Shown here: positions 4,900 to 36,861 of the stretch, in pieces
Layout: each line of letters starts with the position of its first letter
Position numbering within the stretch: the first letter of the stretch is position 1
Source: Candidatus Cryptoclostridium obscurum
Lineage (GTDB): Bacteria > Bacillota > Dehalobacteriia > UBA7702
Assembly (NCBI GenBank): GCA_904420535.1
Contig: CAJFVQ010000012.1
Span: forward strand, 1-43,589
Length of the DNA stretch: 43,589 nucleotides
Reading direction: 5' to 3'
Made by a program: the position numbers and the translations under genes
The notes under the pieces: model-generated
What the model was told of the DNA's origin: nothing
The model's database searches: none
Seen by the model: the letters and a program-made list of their open reading frames with translations, nothing else

Positions 4900-6321
4900 T
4901 TATTTTAGCAGTTCTTCTTCCCGCTGGACAATGGCGTCTAATTTTGCGAGAATTTCTTCGGAAAGGGGTTCGGGTTGATGATTATCGAGAATTTCTACAA
5001 GTTTTTCGGCGACGACTTGTTTCATGTCCTTTGCGCCGTCGGCTTCCCATTCCTCATAAGAGCGGCGTTCACTGAGGGTTGGAGACCAAATTTCATCACG
5101 GAAATGACGGAAGGTGTGTTCTTCTCCCAGGAAATTGCCATTGGGCCCCACTTCTTTGATGGTTTCATAAGCCAAGTGTTCTGCGTCAACGTCAATACCG
5201 CGGAAGAGACGGCGGGCATGGCTGATGACTTCATCCGTAAAGACCAACTGATGACAGGAACCGGTCAAAGCGTAATCCATGAACCCTACGTCGTGAATGA
5301 GGTTGCTGCCGGTGGCGCCGCTGATAAATACCTGCATTGCAGTTTCCATTCCGGCTTGGGCGTCAACGGTTTTGCAATCCGGGGAGCCTGCCAGACCAAA
5401 GGAGGGGACGCCGAGGTAGCGCCATAATTCACCGGAACAGCCGTGGATCAGGATACTTTCCGGGGATCCGTAAGGTGTTTTCATATGTTTCATATCCATG
5501 GGATTTCCGGCGCAACCGGCGATAAAAGGAGCACCGGGTTGGACCAACTGGCTCACCACCAGACCGGTGAGACATTCGGCAGTCCCTACGGACATGGCTC
5601 CCGACAAAGTCACGGGAGCGGTGGCGCCCATCAACATTCCAGGCGTGTAAATGCAGGGAATTTTATTTTTAGCCAGGATCATTACTTTGTCCAAAGCTTC
5701 TTTGCAATGGCTCAAAGGCGTGGTGGGTTCTGCGTAAACAATGAGGAAAGGTTTTTCCTGCAATGCTTCAAGACTCCCTTTGACCGCCGCCGCCATTTCA
5801 ATGATGGCTTCGGTATTGTGGCCGTTAAATGCCCAAGTGGCAATAGGTTTTGTGCTGTTTCTCACCATGGCGTCCATTTCATGAACGTCGGCAAGGCCGC
5901 GGGTCTGGTCCTGGATCATGACCAGGGACATCACATAGTCGATGTTGGGCAAAGCATCGGAGACCAAAGCGGCTTCGGCGGCATCGGATTTCTGGGATAA
6001 TCTCCGTTCTCCGGTGCGAGAATCCATGAAATTGGGGCAGGTGGGGCCTGCGCCATAATAACTGTTTTTGCCGCCAAGATCCATGGCTTCGTTGCCGTTG
6101 CGGTCGTAAATTTTGATGTAAGCGGGAACCGTTTCCAATGCTTTGGCCACAACGGTGCGGGGAATGGTCACTCTGGTGCCTTCTACGGTGCATCCTGCAT
6201 CTTGTAAAAGATTCCGAGCTTCTTCATTGTTGACTTCGACGCCAATGGTTTCCAGAATATGATAACTGGCATCGACGATTTCTTGTAATTTTGCATCGTC
6301 CAAAATCCTAAATTCAATCAT
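4900..6321 (-). CDS. MttB-family (COG5598) corrinoid-dependent-type methyltransferase, paralogue 1
   Basis: A 473-residue protein that aligns by eye along its length with the second MttB protein in the window, sharing blocks such as LPNIDYVMSLVM, DAMVRNSTKPI and EEHTF-FR-DIW. The family transfers a methyl group from trimethylamine, glycine betaine or another quaternary amine to a corrinoid protein. The frame runs through with no in-frame amber codon, so it belongs to the non-pyrrolysine branch typified by MtgB. Start 6321 (MIEFRIL) has GGAGGT five bases upstream; the Met at 6333 would overlap that site. A sigma-54 promoter drives it, divergent from a sigma-54 activator. The exact substrate is not readable. 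Confidence 0.9.
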   Translation of the reverse strand: MIEFRILDDAKLQEIVDASYHILETIGVEVNNEEARNLLQDAGCTVEGTRVTIPRTVVAKALETVPAYIKIYDRNGNEAMDLGGKNSYYGAGPTCPNFMDSRTGERRLSQKSDAAEAALVSDALPNIDYVMSLVMIQDQTRGLADVHEMDAMVRNSTKPIATWAFNGHNTEAIIEMAAAVKGSLEALQEKPFLIVYAEPTTPLSHCKEALDKVMILAKNKIPCIYTPGMLMGATAPVTLSGAMSVGTAECLTGLVVSQLVQPGAPFIAGCAGNPMDMKHMKTPYGSPESILIHGCSGELWRYLGVPSFGLAGSPDCKTVDAQAGMETAMQVFISGATGSNLIHDVGFMDYALTGSCHQLVFTDEVISHARRLFRGIDVDAEHLAYETIKEVGPNGNFLGEEHTFRHFRDEIWSPTLSERRSYEEWEADGAKDMKQVVAEKLVEILDNHQPEPLSEEILAKLDAIVQREEELLK

Positions 6322-6385
6322 AATGACCTCCATGAATGTTTAATATTTTTCCTTCGTTGTGAATGTCGTGAACACTTATTGATAT

Positions 6386-11432: not shown

Positions 11433-11521
11433 CTGAAAATATGTAAACCGATCTTCGCTGTAACATAAGCGGAGGCAAACATAGAAAATAAAATATCAGA
11501 AAAATGAAAGGAAGTAAGAAA

Positions 11522-12961
11522 ATGATCAGTAATTTCCACTTTGAAATCCTCACCGATGCTCAAAAAGAAAAGCTTGTCGATACTGCTTACCGCATCATGG
11601 AAGAGATTGGCATGAATATTCACCTTCCTGAAGCCGTAGAGCTTTTGCGAAAAGCCGGTTGTAACGTGGCGGAAGACGGCATCCGCGTCTACATCCCCCG
11701 TGACGTCACCAAAAAAGCCATTGATTCCGCTCCGGCCGGGATCCAGATCTACGACAGAAACGGAAAAGAAGCCATGTTACTGGAAGGTCGCAATTCCTAT
11801 TTCGGCCCCGGTCCCACCTGCCCTTATTTCTATGATCCCCAAACCGGGGAACGCCGCCCCTCCACCAAACAGGATGCCGCCGATACCGCCAAGGTTTGTG
11901 ATGCCTTGCCTAACATCGATTATGTGATGTCCTTGGTCATGGTAGGGGATCAAACCGACGTTCTGGCGGATATTCACGAAGTGGATGCCATGGTAAGAAA
12001 TTCTACCAAACCTATTTGCACCTGGGCATTTAACGCCGCCAATATGGAAAATCTCTTCCAAATGTGCGCTGCTGTGGCCGGTGGGGAAAAGGAACTTCGG
12101 GAAAAACCCTTCCTCATTGTTTATTCAGAGCCTACTTCGCCTCTTTCCCACGGGAAAGATGCTTTAGAAAAACTCATTATCGCCGCCAAATACGGTGTTC
12201 CCTGTATCTATACTCCCGGTATGATCTTTGGCGGTACAGCACCGATGACCATTGCCGGCGCGCTTCCCCAAGGATTGGCGGAATTCCTTACAGGCCTCGT
12301 CATTGCCCAGTTGGTGGCACCCGGCGCCCCCATCATTGGTGGTACTTCCGGTTCTCCCTTGGATATGAAAACCATGCAAACGCCCTACGGTTCTCCGGAA
12401 TGCAGCCTGATTCTGGCGGCCTCCAATGAAGTCATGCGCTATCTCGGGATTCCTTCCTTTGATATGGCGGGCGCCACGGAATCGAAAAAAGTTGACGCTC
12501 AGTCCGGCGCGGAAATTGCCATGGAAATTTTGATCAGTCTCCAAAGCGGCGGCAATCTCATTCATGATTGCGGTTTTATGGATGTGGGGATCACCGGCTC
12601 CTTGGATCAGCTGGTACTCTGCGATGAAGTGATCGGCATGGCCAAGCGTTATTGCCAATCGGTGGCGGTGGATGACGATCGTATCGGTTTTGATACTATC
12701 AAAGCCGTTGGCCCCGGTGGGAATTATTTGAGCGAAGAACATACCTTCCAATATTTCCGCAGCGATATTTGGACGCCTACTATCATGGAACGCCGCGCTT
12801 ATGAAGGCTGGGCTGCTGACGGCAGTAAAGATATGGCACAACGTGTCCATGAAAAAATGATTGAGATCTTAGAAAGCCATGCGCCCGAAGCCCTCTCCGA
12901 TGATGTTTTGAAGCAGTTGGACGATATTGTCGCCGCAGCCGAAGCTCGTGTTTCCAAATAA
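11522..12961 (+). CDS. MttB-family (COG5598) corrinoid-dependent-type methyltransferase, paralogue 2
   Basis: A 479-residue paralogue of the protein at 4900-6321, similar from end to end (for example LPNIDYVMSLVM, HEVDAMVRNSTKPI, IYTPGM, EEHTFQYFRSDIW). As there, no in-frame amber codon interrupts it, which places it with non-pyrrolysine MttB homologues such as glycine-betaine methyltransferase MtgB. Start 11522 (MISNFHF) has AAAGGAAG at a proper distance and matches the paralogue's N terminus; 11504 overlaps that site. It is co-transcribed with the MFS gene. It would need a corrinoid protein and a reductive activase encoded elsewhere. Substrate unknown. Confidence 0.9.
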   Translation: MISNFHFEILTDAQKEKLVDTAYRIMEEIGMNIHLPEAVELLRKAGCNVAEDGIRVYIPRDVTKKAIDSAPAGIQIYDRNGKEAMLLEGRNSYFGPGPTCPYFYDPQTGERRPSTKQDAADTAKVCDALPNIDYVMSLVMVGDQTDVLADIHEVDAMVRNSTKPICTWAFNAANMENLFQMCAAVAGGEKELREKPFLIVYSEPTSPLSHGKDALEKLIIAAKYGVPCIYTPGMIFGGTAPMTIAGALPQGLAEFLTGLVIAQLVAPGAPIIGGTSGSPLDMKTMQTPYGSPECSLILAASNEVMRYLGIPSFDMAGATESKKVDAQSGAEIAMEILISLQSGGNLIHDCGFMDVGITGSLDQLVLCDEVIGMAKRYCQSVAVDDDRIGFDTIKAVGPGGNYLSEEHTFQYFRSDIWTPTIMERRAYEGWAADGSKDMAQRVHEKMIEILESHAPEALSDDVLKQLDDIVAAAEARVSK

Positions 12962-14056: not shown

Positions 14057-14722
14057 TTAATTGAATTTTGGAGGCTCCACATCGGTGCCGTGAAAATCGT
14101 TCTTCGGTGACGGCGTGGAAAGATCAAAATAAAGACGGGAATCTTGGGTCACGCCGAAATCCAGGTTGGAGCCGCTGTCCTGGACGCGGTTGAAGGCTTC
14201 CCGAAACATGGCGTTATGGGCTTCTTCGCGGTTCAGGAGAAAGTCAATGGTCTCTTTGACCTTTTTATCGTCGATTTGACGGTATAAATATTCGTAGACG
14301 ACCTTCGCCCGCTGTTCCGAGGCGATGTTTGAAAGGAGATCCGCGCAGAGATCCCCGGTGACGGTAACGTAATCCGCCGTCCAAGAATAGCCTGAGGAGT
14401 TCGTCAAACCGGGACTCAGACCCCACAAGACATGGGTTTCGATTTCCCCGCCATTGACGCCTTGGCTGTCCAAATCATGACCGTTCAGAAGGTTGATGGT
14501 GGCGGCCACCATTTCCATATGGCTCAGTTCCTCGGCGGCAATATCCATGAACAGATCCTTAATGGCGGGATCTTTCACGCGGAAGCTTTGGGACATATAC
14601 TGCATGGCTGCTTTCAATTCGCCGTTGCCGCCGCCCAGTTGTTCCTGGAGCAACGCGGCATAGTGGGCATTGGGACGCTCCACCGCCACAGGATGAAGCA
14701 GTTGCTTTTCATGTCGAAACAT
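14057..14722 (-). CDS. Manganese catalase family protein
   Basis: A 221-residue ferritin-like four-helix protein. The dimanganese ligands expected from the Thermus/Lactobacillus enzymes are all present: Glu35, Glu65 and His68 (EELSH), Glu136 (ASEQRAK) and His169 (REEAH). It would disproportionate hydrogen peroxide, useful to an anaerobe exposed to air. It is somewhat longer than the spore-coat relative CotJC and shorter than full-length Mn catalases. GGAGGTG lies directly before the ATG. It is 87 bases downstream of rsmG in the same direction with no clear terminator between, so read-through from the mnmE operon is possible. Confidence 0.9.
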   Translation of the reverse strand: MFRHEKQLLHPVAVERPNAHYAALLQEQLGGGNGELKAAMQYMSQSFRVKDPAIKDLFMDIAAEELSHMEMVAATINLLNGHDLDSQGVNGGEIETHVLWGLSPGLTNSSGYSWTADYVTVTGDLCADLLSNIASEQRAKVVYEYLYRQIDDKKVKETIDFLLNREEAHNAMFREAFNRVQDSGSNLDFGVTQDSRLYFDLSTPSPKNDFHGTDVEPPKFN

Positions 14723-23717: not shown

Positions 23718-24016
23718 TAAAAAAACCTTCGTCCCTGGAAAGAGACGAAGGCTGAAATACATACTCCGTGGTACCACTCTAATTGGTATCAAATAATACC
23801 CACTCTTCCGCATCGGCCGAACCTTAAAATCGGCGAATGCGTTCTCCTGCATAACGGTGAGAAACCCGGTCGCACTTACTCAAAACATCTTTCAGCTGAC
23901 TGCTCAAGGGGGAGACGATCAAAGCACGGGTGTTATCTCGCACCGAACGATAACTCTCTGAAACGCCGAAGGCCGTGATCCGATCCCTGTCATCGCATTT
24001 AAAAAAATATGAAACT
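23718..24016 (-). ncRNA. T-box leader riboswitch of the leucine operon
   Basis: On the minus strand the conserved T-box AGAGTGGTACCACGG is at 23766-23780. It is followed by a terminator CCTTCGTCTCT-TTCC-AGGGACGAAGG (23726-23751) and a run of seven T. A Stem-I distal hairpin (GTTATC, loop with GGTGCGAG, GATAAC) lies near 23930-23953. Uncharged tRNA pairing stabilises the antiterminator and turns on leuACDB. The specifier codon could not be fixed by eye: the 3' side of the lower loop reads CTTTGATCGTCTC, offering CTC (Leu) or ATC (Ile). Confidence 0.93.
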
Positions 24017-24264: not shown

Positions 24265-25743
24265 TTATTGCGCGATATTTTCACCGTACCGCATGTGAAT
24301 GGTTGCAACCTGGGCGCGGGTGGTGTGGGCTTTCGGAGCAATGGCGCCGTCGTCCATTCCTTCAATGACCTCTTCGGCCACAGCCCATTGCAAGGGAGCT
24401 ATTGCGTATGGGCTGATGGTATCGGCATCGCTGAATTGAGACAAATCTCCTGCGGCGCTGACGTCATATCCTTTATATTCCGCGTAACGGTACAAAATTG
24501 CCGCCGTCTGCTCTCTGGTGATATTGTCATCGGGACCAAAAAGCCCTTCTCCGTAGCCGTTGACAATTTCATGATCGGTTGCCCAAAGTACAGCATCGCC
24601 GTACCACGCCCCGTCTTCCGTATCGTGGTAGCTGTCAGCGCCAGATACTTCAGGTGCGCCTTCCTGATTATAAAGTACCTGTACCAGCATGGCACGGGAC
24701 AACTGGGTATCGGGTCGGAATGTTTGGTCGGGATATCCTTCCATCAACTTGTTGTTGATGACATAATCCGTTGCACTGTGATACCATGCGCCGGGATTTA
24801 AGTCACTGAAGCTGTGGGAGGGGCAGCTTTCTCCTACTTCCGTCCATTTTTCTGCCTGGTGCATCCCTAAGATGACATTGTATTTCGCCAGGTCGGAAGC
24901 ATCTCTGTTGGTCATAGTTGCGTACCAGGTGCGGTTTTTGATGTTGGTATCGGTTCCGTTATAAGTTTCGCCGTTGACCAAAAGGTCCTCAAGGCTGTTA
25001 CCGAATTGGAAATGATAATGGGCTGCGATGGGAGTTTTGGTATCGCCCTCCATGTCCGGAGCCATAGTTACAAGATATTTATAGACGCTGTCGGCTCCAA
25101 GAGTATCGGCGGTGAATACATACATGGTAGCGCCCTCCAGGCCTTTTACCATTTTTCCGGTCATGGTATAACTGTCAGAGGCCAAAACTTTGCCGTCGTT
25201 ATCCAGCCATGAAAGCAGATAACCGGAATTCTCTGCTTCGGCAACGGTAATCGTTGCCACGCCTTCGGTGCCGGTCATTTCATACCAGTAGGCTTTCAAG
25301 GCGGCAGTATCCGGATATTGTTCTTCTACCATTTTTCCCATTTCTTCGCTGACGGCATAGAATGCGGCGATATAGGCATCATAAGCGATATCCCAGACTT
25401 CTTCCAGATATGGATATCTCGCCAAAGTTTGTTCGTCGGGATAAATATACTTTTGCCAAGTTTCCCAATTTCCTACCCAATGTTTCAGTGTCGTGTCACC
25501 CACCAGTTGGGTTTTGTCTCCGATGGTTACAAGATAAGCGTCGGCATCACCATTTTCAAAAACTTCAGTGTTCGTAAGATCCAGATCGGAAAAATCAAGG
25601 GTTTCCAAAGCTTCCTGGGTAAATTTATCGGTAACGTCGGTTCCATCCACGATTACAGCGGTATCTGCCGCCATTGCTCCTGCGGGAATTGCAAAAACGC
25701 CAAAAATAGCCACGAGAAGCAGAGATAAAAAGCCTTTTTTCAC
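24265..25743 (-). CDS. Secreted ZinT/YodA-like metal-binding domain fused to three SLH repeats
   Basis: A 492-residue exported protein. The signal peptide (MKKGFLSLLLVAIFGVFAIPAGAMA) is cleaved near residue 25. Residues about 84-297 resemble ZinT (YodA), the periplasmic zinc-binding lipocalin-like protein: LKHWVGNWETWQKYIYP at the start, and AHYHFQFGN at 241-249 with His242 and His244 matching ZinT's HFHIFMGN zinc site. Three SLH repeats follow (about 309-360, 371-422, 437-487) that would hold it on the cell wall. GTG 25743 is chosen because AAAGGTGG lies eight bases upstream. It probably captures zinc or a similar metal at the surface; this is inferred from the fold. Confidence 0.82.
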   Translation of the reverse strand: MKKGFLSLLLVAIFGVFAIPAGAMAADTAVIVDGTDVTDKFTQEALETLDFSDLDLTNTEVFENGDADAYLVTIGDKTQLVGDTTLKHWVGNWETWQKYIYPDEQTLARYPYLEEVWDIAYDAYIAAFYAVSEEMGKMVEEQYPDTAALKAYWYEMTGTEGVATITVAEAENSGYLLSWLDNDGKVLASDSYTMTGKMVKGLEGATMYVFTADTLGADSVYKYLVTMAPDMEGDTKTPIAAHYHFQFGNSLEDLLVNGETYNGTDTNIKNRTWYATMTNRDASDLAKYNVILGMHQAEKWTEVGESCPSHSFSDLNPGAWYHSATDYVINNKLMEGYPDQTFRPDTQLSRAMLVQVLYNQEGAPEVSGADSYHDTEDGAWYGDAVLWATDHEIVNGYGEGLFGPDDNITREQTAAILYRYAEYKGYDVSAAGDLSQFSDADTISPYAIAPLQWAVAEEVIEGMDDGAIAPKAHTTRAQVATIHMRYGENIAQ

Positions 25744-25804
25744 AAAAGCAACCACCTTTCTTATACAATAACTGTTCTGATAAGTTTCTGTTGCGATATT
25801 TTAG

Positions 25805-25886: not shown

Positions 25887-26031
25887 TGGTCATAAGCGCT
25901 TATGTATTCATCATAGCATGGAGCTTTTATTTTTTCAATAGTTTTTCTGACATTTGTTTTGTTTTTTTGTGAGTAATTTGGGGAGGACCTTTAGAAAATG
26001 GACATTCATTCGTTCAAAGAAGGGGAATTTC

Positions 26032-29138: not shown

Positions 29139-29206
29139 GAGATTTCTTGCTAAGCTTTCTATTTTATTTGAAATATGGTATGATAAAACAAACGGGAGAA
29201 TACGCC

Positions 29207-29662
29207 ATGAGTCGACTGCTGTCACAAGGAAAAATCATTTCACTCATATTGCTGTTCATCATTGTGGCCGCAACATTTTTGAGCTGCGGAAACGGGAATA
29301 TTGACGAAAACAGCGCTTATACCTCATCGGACGAAGTCGCGGCTTATCTTAATGCCTATGGCCGTCTTCCTGAAAACTTTATCACAAAAGACGAGGCCAA
29401 AGCTTTAGGATGGGACAGTACATTAGGAAATCTCAATGAAGTTGCACCGGGAAAAAGCATTGGCGGCGATCGTTTCGGGAATTACGAAGGGCTTTTGCCG
29501 GAAAAGGAAGGCCGCATCTATTACGAATGCGACATAAATTACAACGGTGGTTTTCGCGGCAGAGAACGACTTGTATGGTCCAACGACGGATTGATCTACT
29601 ACAGCGGCGACCATTACGAATCCTTTACCCTGCTTTACGGTACAGAGGAGGCGAACCCATGA
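29207..29662 (+). CDS. Barnase-type ribonuclease lipoprotein
   Basis: A 151-residue secreted protein. A membrane signal at residues 8-26 ends in TFLSC, which fits a lipobox with Cys27. Residues about 40-146 match barnase closely: LPENFITKDEAKALGW and VAPGKSIGGDRFGN, then DINYNGGFR. The catalytic set is intact: Lys61, Glu107 (general base), Arg117, Arg121 and His136 (general acid). It would cleave RNA, mainly after G, outside the membrane. Start 29207 follows GGGAG by eight bases; the earlier Met at 29147 lacks a site. Its stop overlaps the barstar start (ATGA). Likely a defence or competition RNase, or a nutrient nuclease. Confidence 0.9.
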   Translation: MSRLLSQGKIISLILLFIIVAATFLSCGNGNIDENSAYTSSDEVAAYLNAYGRLPENFITKDEAKALGWDSTLGNLNEVAPGKSIGGDRFGNYEGLLPEKEGRIYYECDINYNGGFRGRERLVWSNDGLIYYSGDHYESFTLLYGTEEANP

Positions 29663-29943
29663 ACAATATAACATTGCGAGGTAATGAAATATTTACCAAA
29701 GATGATCTCTTTACAGCGCTGAGAACTTCCGCGACATTGCCCTCCTCTTGTGGAAAAAACCTCGATGCCTTGGCAGATGTGATCACCGAAGCGGCGCCCG
29801 TTCACATTGTAGTCAAAGAACCGCAGCAATTTTGCCGACATCTGGGAGATTGGGGGGTGCGGTGTTTAAAAATGCTGAAGGCTTTGACTGCGAAGGATCA
29901 TCATATTACTTTGACCATTGAGGAGGAAAATCAGGAATCATGA
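29659..29943 (+). CDS. Barstar-family ribonuclease inhibitor
   Basis: A 94-residue cytoplasmic protein, typical barstar length. The inhibitor helix CGKNLDALAD keeps the two key aspartates (Asp36 and Asp40, equivalent to barstar Asp35 and Asp39 that plug the barnase active site). Barstar Tyr29 and Trp38 are replaced here by Ser and Ala. It overlaps the barnase-like gene by four bases (ATGA), which ties inhibitor synthesis to that of the RNase, and overlaps the next gene in the same way. It protects the cell from RNase that has not been exported. Confidence 0.9.
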   Translation: MNNITLRGNEIFTKDDLFTALRTSATLPSSCGKNLDALADVITEAAPVHIVVKEPQQFCRHLGDWGVRCLKMLKALTAKDHHITLTIEEENQES

Positions 29944-33708: not shown

Positions 33709-33870
33709 GCTTGCAGAAGAACAGGCGTCGCCTTACCGAAGGGGTAACACTCCCAGGTGTCCGTAGGATGAGGACTGCAAGCCGATGGAACTCTGGAGAA
33801 GCCCACAAAACGGGTGCCGAAGGGGCAAAGCGCGTTTCGCGTTAATCTCTCAGGCAAAAGGACAGAGAGC
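33709..33870 (+). ncRNA. Tandem glycine riboswitch (two aptamers)
   Basis: The first aptamer is closed by GCTTGCAG (33709-33716) and CTGCAAGC (33775-33782) and contains the core ACCGAAGGGGTAA. The second is closed by CTCT (33791-33794) and AGAG (33865-33868). It contains GCCGAAGGGGCAA and the diagnostic CTCTCAGGCAAAAGGACAGAG, given as positions 33847-33867. This is the gcvT-type glycine aptamer pair. It precedes an AGCS symporter, so it senses intracellular glycine to control glycine/alanine transport. Confidence 0.93.
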
Positions 33871-33886
33871 AAATCAAAACAGAAGA

Positions 33887-35589: not shown

Positions 35590-36861
35590 TTAGATGGTAG
35601 CATTGATCACACGACTGAAAATGGTTGCCATCTGTGCTCTGGTGCAGGTTCCCTGGGGAGCCAGTTGGTTGTCCCCGATTCCTTCCATGATGCCGTATTC
35701 TACACACCAGGTCATGGCTGCTTGAGCATAGGTGCCGATTTGAGCGGCATCTTTAAAGTAATCGGCAAGATCAATGGTCGTTGTTTCGTCGTAACCCAGA
35801 TAATCGGTGCAATATCTGTAAATAAAGGTTGCGGCCTGTTCGCGGGTTAAATTTCTTTCGGGTTCAAAGGTGGTATCGGTCATGCCTCTGGCAATTCCTT
35901 CCTGAGCAGCCCAGAGAATCGCGTCTTTGGCCCAGTTATAAGCTTCGGGAACATCGGTGAAGGGATATTCCGTCGCGGAAACTGTGGGTTCTCCTTCCAA
36001 ACGATAAAGCATAGTCACCATCATGGCGCGGGTCAGATTCGTGTCAGGGGAGAAGCTGTCTTGGTCCATGCCATTCATGATGCCTCTGGCGGCAACAAAG
36101 TTTACATAGGGTTCAAACCATTTGCCGGAAATGTCGTTGAAAGTGACGATGTTATCGTCGACAAGGAAAGAAATATCACCGGTGACGGGGAAAGCAATCA
36201 TGTCATATTCACTGTCGTACCCGGTTTTGGTCAACACGGATCCCACTCCGTCAACGTATTCCACGATCACCGTGGTTTCGTTAAAATCCTCGCCGCCGCC
36301 GGCTAAAACAGCGTAAGCGTTGACAGTTTCCGCGCCGTCAAAATTGATATAGGGGGTTTCTTCTCCTAAACCGATTCCCATAACAAAATTGTCGCCGGTG
36401 CAGACAGGTACTTCATGGAAATAAAGATAGGTGCCGCCCATCATGGCACTGCATACCATGACGCCGTCGCTCTCTTCCAAAGCGGCTAATTTTTCCATGG
36501 AAGCCTTGGAGATGGAGATGGCTTCAGCGGGTTGTTGACTATATGCATTGGTCATAAACGCTACAACGTCCACATCATTGGCGGCAGCGGCTTCTAACAC
36601 TTTGTTCATTTCATCGTCGGTAAAGGTGGCGGTAAAAACGCCTTGCACATCAACACCATTATGGGTAACGACCATGGTGCCGTTTTCAATGGCGTACTTG
36701 CAATCTGCGCTGATTTCAATTTCTGTGATGTTGCTGGGGTCGGCTTGGATTACAGTGTCAACCTTAGCGGCATCGCTTAAGTCTGCGGCGAGTGCACCCA
36801 TGGATCCGAATGCCAAGACCGTGGCAACGACAAGGCATAGGATCAGTAACTTTTTCTTCAT
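35590..36861 (-). CDS. Secreted SLH-domain surface protein
   Basis: A 423-residue exported protein. The signal peptide MKKKLLILCLVVATVLAFGS continues to cleavage after ALA (residue 25). The N-terminal 215 or so residues are not recognised as a known domain; they are acidic and beta-rich, as often in S-layer-associated proteins. Three SLH repeats follow (about 240-300, 305-362 and 368-423) with the TRAMMVTMLYR, TREQAATFIYR and TRAQMATIFSR motifs that bind pyruvylated wall polymers. GGAGGATATT lies before the ATG. It has its own promoter and terminator. Together with the ZinT-SLH protein it is one of two SLH-anchored proteins here. Confidence 0.88.
   Translation of the reverse strand: MKKKLLILCLVVATVLAFGSMGALAADLSDAAKVDTVIQADPSNITEIEISADCKYAIENGTMVVTHNGVDVQGVFTATFTDDEMNKVLEAAAANDVDVVAFMTNAYSQQPAEAISISKASMEKLAALEESDGVMVCSAMMGGTYLYFHEVPVCTGDNFVMGIGLGEETPYINFDGAETVNAYAVLAGGGEDFNETTVIVEYVDGVGSVLTKTGYDSEYDMIAFPVTGDISFLVDDNIVTFNDISGKWFEPYVNFVAARGIMNGMDQDSFSPDTNLTRAMMVTMLYRLEGEPTVSATEYPFTDVPEAYNWAKDAILWAAQEGIARGMTDTTFEPERNLTREQAATFIYRYCTDYLGYDETTTIDLADYFKDAAQIGTYAQAAMTWCVEYGIMEGIGDNQLAPQGTCTRAQMATIFSRVINATI

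Follow-up and report, generated by a model that had tools for sequence, protein, structure and literature searches.

Does the gene at positions 24265-25743 of the window (the whole 43,589-nt stretch analyzed here, on which all positions are numbered unless another genome or contig is named) encode a metal-binding domain of the ZinT type fixed to the cell wall, and how might such a protein serve its host? The explanation that we prefer is a wall-displayed, remote ZinT-type barrel that gathers or buffers metal; taken as a whole, we give it about an even chance of being right, and its parts differ considerably in firmness.

The gene and its SLH anchor

The gene is an intact open reading frame (ORF) of 492 codons plus stop. 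Its coordinates in the initial annotation were right, and the strand, which was not given there, is minus. The features of the gene and of its upstream region are as follows.

24265..25743, minus strand: whole gene, with a GTG start at 25743 and an alternative in-frame GTG at 25755
25669..25743, minus strand: predicted Sec signal peptide, residues 1-25, with the end AMA/ADT and no lipobox Cys (read from the translation)
25492..25668, minus strand: N-terminal segment, residues 26-84 (alignment with the relative L002, see below)
24844..25491, minus strand: ZinT-like, lipocalin-type core, residues 85-300 (profile test, alignment, fold searches)
25465..25479, minus strand: WxGxW motif (WVGNW), residues 89-93, at the core start; the ZinT counterpart is WDGVW (profile test, alignment)
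25054..25080, minus strand: KYLVTMAPD block, residues 222-230 (alignment with ZinT; conserved in L002)
25009..25020, minus strand: HYHF (HxHF motif), residues 242-245; lies opposite the HFH pair of zinc ligands in the alignment with ZinT/AdcA
24658..24813, minus strand: SLH repeat 1, residues 311-362 (Pfam PF00395)
24478..24633, minus strand: SLH repeat 2, residues 371-422 (Pfam PF00395)
24280..24438, minus strand: SLH repeat 3, residues 436-488 (Pfam PF00395)
25910..25938, minus strand: promoter-like site TTGAAA-17-TATGAT with an extended -10 (consensus match only)
25891..25904, unstranded: perfect palindrome CATAAGCGCTTATG, a candidate operator that closely follows the -10

The hydrophobic N-terminus reads clearly as a predicted Sec export signal, and the three SLH repeats that had been claimed are borne out by Pfam (PF00395, E 2.1e-32, three stretches), such that anchoring of the product to the wall is well supported from the sequence. 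To judge from the rest of the genome, the SLH cassette is a resident module of the host that is routinely placed on exported proteins. Within about 2.10 Mb, 32 ORFs bear three SLH repeats each, the cassette being located C- or N-terminally on many different modules, and among their N-termini are some that read as lysozyme-, deacetylase-, protease- and von-Willebrand-type domains. The cassette nearest to that of the gene (66% identical) resides on an otherwise unrelated protein of the same genome, and no second copy of the N-terminal segment was found there. The simplest history would be a fusion, in either direction, between a rare exported ZinT-like protein and this resident anchor. The window itself contains another ORF with three SLH repeats (35590-36861, minus strand), whose N-terminal domain gave only a weak match, to AIM24 (E 0.037).

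A single relative and the putative metal site

A scan of 84,980 species, with a reach confined to close relatives, yielded one relative, L002, a protein of a metagenome-assembled genome (MAG) labelled Spirochaetaceae (JAITJK010000194.1). L002 is 61-64% identical to the window protein across the N-terminal segment and core (core 64%, best segment 62%) and possesses both of these in full, with HYHF and APD conserved; the shared residues of the N-terminal segment align as VIVDG.DV...DFS.LDLTNT.VF..G....YLVTIG. Unlike the window protein, however, it is a lipoprotein with the lipobox LLAAGC and stops after the core, lacking SLH repeats. No relatives of the core were detected among 149 related genomes, 398 genomes drawn from the phylum, 345 genomes of the spirochaete phylum beyond that of L002 itself, viral contigs or plasmids. 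Several weak genome matches (L011-L014, L016) proved on inspection of their ORFs to be due to chance. Two weak ZinT matches came from the same class: L004, whose sequence reads as that of an amidase-like protein, and L005, with an ORF equal in length to that of L004. By alignment, the window protein and L002 form a subfamily of two in which the HxH block is conserved. Transfer across phyla is at most suggested, since the MAG contig carrying L002 could be mis-binned.

In the ZinT-type domain of AdcA, zinc is held by His452, His461 and His463, and ZinT-type sites are solvent accessible and take Co and Ni as well (PMC7858048), so zinc specificity is not to be assumed for any such site in the window protein. 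The alignment places its HxH at AdcA His461 and His463, the last two of the three zinc ligands. A counterpart of the first ligand is missing: KYLVTMAPD stands where ZinT has KYIQFSDH, and the His of ‘SDH’ is absent from both the window protein and L002, so that of the pattern H-x8-HxH only the HxH is present. Over the corresponding stretch, E. coli ZinT reads SDHIIAPRKSSHFH, and both subfamily members read LVTMAPDMEGD...AAHYHF. A divergent ZinT member from Bacillota, L009, retains a His at the first-ligand place. Asp230, which is common to the window protein and L002, adjoins the place of the missing His and is a candidate replacement ligand, an assignment that is tentative because the loop alignment varies between runs. 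Nor does the protein have the His-rich tail with which ZinT begins.

The most conserved stretch between the two proteins, YKYLVTMAPDMEGD...AAHYHFQFG, is identical at 25 of 28 positions, vs 64% overall, although the permutation p of this maximum is no better than 0.09. Conservation of the histidines, on which the initial annotation had made its proposal depend, turns out to be partial (two are conserved and one is not) and is weakly tested, because only two family members are known. The conserved HxH nonetheless makes a putative ‘metal trap’, as the product had been called, a reasonable inference.

The same residues can be read differently, in that a ZinT-descended or ZinT-like barrel might have lost efficient metal binding and assumed another ligand or a structural or adhesive role, with the HxH being partly structural. 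The loss of the first His ligand and the His-rich tail, the extra helical and loop insertions seen in the alignment, the lack of a detectable zinc regulation signal at the gene (discussed further below), and the many unrelated modules borne by the same anchor in this genome would all be expected of such a protein. It would not be expected, however, that conservation between two proteins 64% identical in the core should peak at the HxH and the Asp-containing stretch next to it, and we consider loss of binding doubtful, albeit less so than the other alternatives. If binding was lost, a carrier barrel has been reused on an S-layer-type anchor. A more elaborate form of the metal-gathering barrel, in which a ZinT-derived metal-binding subfamily with a site of two His and a carboxylate moved between Bacillota and spirochaetes, exchanged lipid and SLH anchors, and acts in the window as a wall-bound trap, appears to us somewhat unlikely.

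Probable relationship of the core to ZinT

Curated models do not recognize the core. The ZinT family (PF09223) gave no Pfam match in the full protein, in the isolated core (searched at E up to 10) or anywhere in the genome (E 10); NCBIfam gave no ZinT match in the full protein or in the core (E up to 1 for the latter), and the curated-model search yielded one chance match only. The ZnuA-type domain PF01297 is also absent from the protein by Pfam, which sets it apart from the AdcA-type fusion of ZnuA and ZinT.

An independent profile was built from 10 ZinT domains, leaving out the window gene and L002: E. coli ZinT, two AdcA C-terminal domains, entries from Priestia, Rhizobium, Tritonibacter and Sinorhizobium, a Phyllobacterium entry annotated as AztD, a ZnuA-ZinT protein of Subdoligranulum (L020), and L009, which lies below the Pfam cut-off (21.8 vs 27 bits). 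This profile scored the window core at 15.3 bits and L002 at 16.3 bits; none of 1,000 shuffles exceeded 7.6 bits, and the next ORF of the window reached 5.6. The corresponding single-test P values (window core, 7.7e-7, or about 8e-7; L002, 3.8e-7) are somewhat generous, because the ZinT hypothesis had been picked in the initial annotation from the same motif. Across the host genome, the gene ranked first of 5,526 ORFs (E 0.0084; next ORF E 0.81), and the match is colinear, with a start VxDxxLxxWxGxW followed by Y...YxF...KY...AAHxHxxxGN. When L009 was removed, the scores of the window core and L002 became 10.6 and 11.4 bits, vs 7.5 for shuffles; with both L009 and L020 removed, leaving eight classical ZinTs, both scores were at background level and the gene ranked third in its genome (E 1.7). 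Comparison by hhalign of the two-member profile with small ZinT sets gave single-comparison P values of 0.004-0.008 at low probability, in the right register, and a sequence search of the PDB with the same two-member profile returned only weak lipocalin matches (C8gamma, E about 0.8).

With just two sequences to draw on, AlphaFold produced models of poor quality (pLDDT 44 and 52). In fold searches of 350,542 chains, the nearest solved structure to both was the ZinT domain of AdcA, with 7jj9 and 7jja ranked first and second in one run and 7jja first in the other; lipocalins and avidins were also among the ranked matches. Comparison with a set of viral structures gave nothing informative. At E 0.12-0.19 and probability 0.15-0.28, these matches are not significant on their own, and the informative part is the appearance of the same family on top in both runs, which are not independent because the sequences overlap. 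Structure prediction, proposed earlier as the means of comparing the domain with ZinT, thus places the AdcA domain on top both times, yet does so from low-confidence models and with weak statistics.

From the bridged profile and the ranking of fold matches, remote ZinT homology of the core is probable rather than proven, because the profile signal falls when the bridging sequences are withdrawn and both models are of low confidence. The original designation as a ZinT-like domain can therefore be kept in the sense of a remote relationship that the curated models do not match, whereas describing it as ‘the same type of domain’ overstated the case, given the loss of the first zinc-ligand His and of the His-rich N-terminus and an inserted helical stretch about 25 residues long. 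The alternative that the core is not homologous to ZinT at all, but has another lipocalin-like (calycin) or an unrelated fold in which the HxHF is coincidental, can draw on the silence of Pfam and NCBIfam, on the dependence of the profile signal on L009 and L020, and on the lipocalins and avidins in the fold search; against it stand the first rank of the gene in its genome by the bridged profile, two motifs colinear with ZinT, and the AdcA domain at the head of both fold searches, and we judge it unlikely.

Known systems and the zinc context

Several known proteins resemble the window protein in part. ZinT itself (YodA, PF09223, E. coli b1973) shares the WxGxW start, the export (predicted for the gene product), the HxH in register and, as far as the AlphaFold model of the gene product can be trusted, the succession of helices and then strands; apart from the differences in the core described above, ZinT is a free protein and the gene product is SLH-anchored. 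The C-terminal ZinT-like domain of Streptococcus AdcA, the best structural match to the core, likewise is a ZinT-type module inside a larger exported Gram-positive protein, but in AdcA this module belongs to a lipoprotein, is fused to a ZnuA-type domain and has three His ligands, whereas the window protein has three SLH repeats and no ZnuA part. L008, in another Bacillota genome (214-1851 there), also combines a ZinT-type domain with a cell-wall-binding protein, but its anchor consists of three CWB2 repeats, it also has a Listeria-Bacteroides repeat, and its ZinT domain has a Pfam match; that domain ends before the HxH and is probably truncated. Besides the free periplasmic protein and the AdcA C-terminal domain named earlier as the main forms of ZinT, this CWB2-ZinT fusion is a precedent for wall-associated ZinT. 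A further arrangement is presented by L020 (OY725857.1, ORF about 1051-2598), a nested fusion in which ZinT lies inside ZnuA, replacing the His-rich loop, and which is adjoined by zur- and znuC-like ORFs.

Because ZinT fusions already exist in AdcA, L008 and L020, the joining of a ZinT-like domain to SLH repeats is a new architecture composed of known parts, with the domain modified, and no new kind of system. A ZinT-SLH protein is not named in the literature searched, insofar as titles and the opening parts of abstracts represent the papers on ZinT and S-layers. The closest analogues in the way they work are IlsA and BslK of the Bacillus cereus group, whose SLH repeats present a NEAT domain that binds heme (PMC2777315, PMC7759979); these too are SLH-anchored binders of a nutrient metal at the surface, but they act on heme through a NEAT module unrelated to ZinT. 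ZepA of Anabaena, also considered as an analogue, is a different protein, an exoprotein with PEP-CTERM (PMC10957091).

The host genome encodes one ZnuA, in the gene order fur/zur-znuA-znuC-znuB on contig C83, separate from the contig of the gene. The earlier statement that no solute-binding protein lies nearby stands for the gene's own contig, among whose ORFs none was seen, but it has to be set beside this operon. The palindrome TGAAATTCAATTTCA upstream of zur-znuACB is presumably the Zur box, and no copy of the motif was found at the gene in scans of the locus and of the whole genome, for which the genome's own presumed Zur box was the sole standard. The palindrome at the gene, CATAAGCGCTTATG, is unrelated to it, occurs exactly once in the genome, and is possibly the operator of some regulator. 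Membership of the gene in a zinc-limitation regulon, or its control by zinc, is unsupported though conceivable, because the znu operon is on another contig and its putative Zur box has no copy at the gene. A Zur-regulated zinc-limitation scavenger with a dedicated ZnuA partner, a narrower form of the preferred explanation and compatible with it, would accord with the zur-znuACB genes of the host and with the assistance that ZinT-type domains of other bacteria give to AdcA or ZnuA in taking up zinc (PMC7858048), but is improbable given the unlinked znu genes and the two dissimilar palindromes.

For the wall-displayed, metal-gathering barrel in its broader form, the firm part would be export by Sec and attachment to the wall through the three SLH repeats. 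The displayed module would be a remote, modified ZinT-type (lipocalin-like) barrel, a fold that is supported, short of proof; the HxH pair, perhaps together with Asp230 or a nearby carboxylate, would bind a divalent transition metal in a pocket open to solvent; and metal gathered or buffered at the wall might be handed over, directly or through a raised local concentration, to importers in the membrane, for instance ZnuACB. If this is true, metal recruitment of the ZinT type, so far placed in the periplasm and on AdcA lipoproteins, extends to the outer wall in a cell coated with SLH proteins, in parallel with the SLH-anchored heme scavengers, and employs an altered metal site whose specificity is testable.

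By sequence reading, the neighbours of the gene are leu genes, an iron-type alcohol dehydrogenase and a phosphate-type transporter, with no functional link to it. A T-box leader precedes the leu genes (23738-24002, minus strand), and a glycine riboswitch (33783-33875, plus strand) precedes an amino-acid transporter-like ORF. Elsewhere in the window, a barnase-type ribonuclease gene (29147-29943, plus strand; PF00545, E 1.7e-18) encodes an exported or lipoprotein-like N-terminus and is followed by a small ORF that appears barstar-like by eye, and a manganese catalase family protein is encoded at 14057-14722 (minus strand). Two ORFs that read as MttB-like, i.e. trimethylamine-methyltransferases (4900-6333, minus strand; 11504-12961, plus strand), are accompanied by a betaine-type transporter and sigma-54-type regulators, which suggests use of methylamines or betaine.
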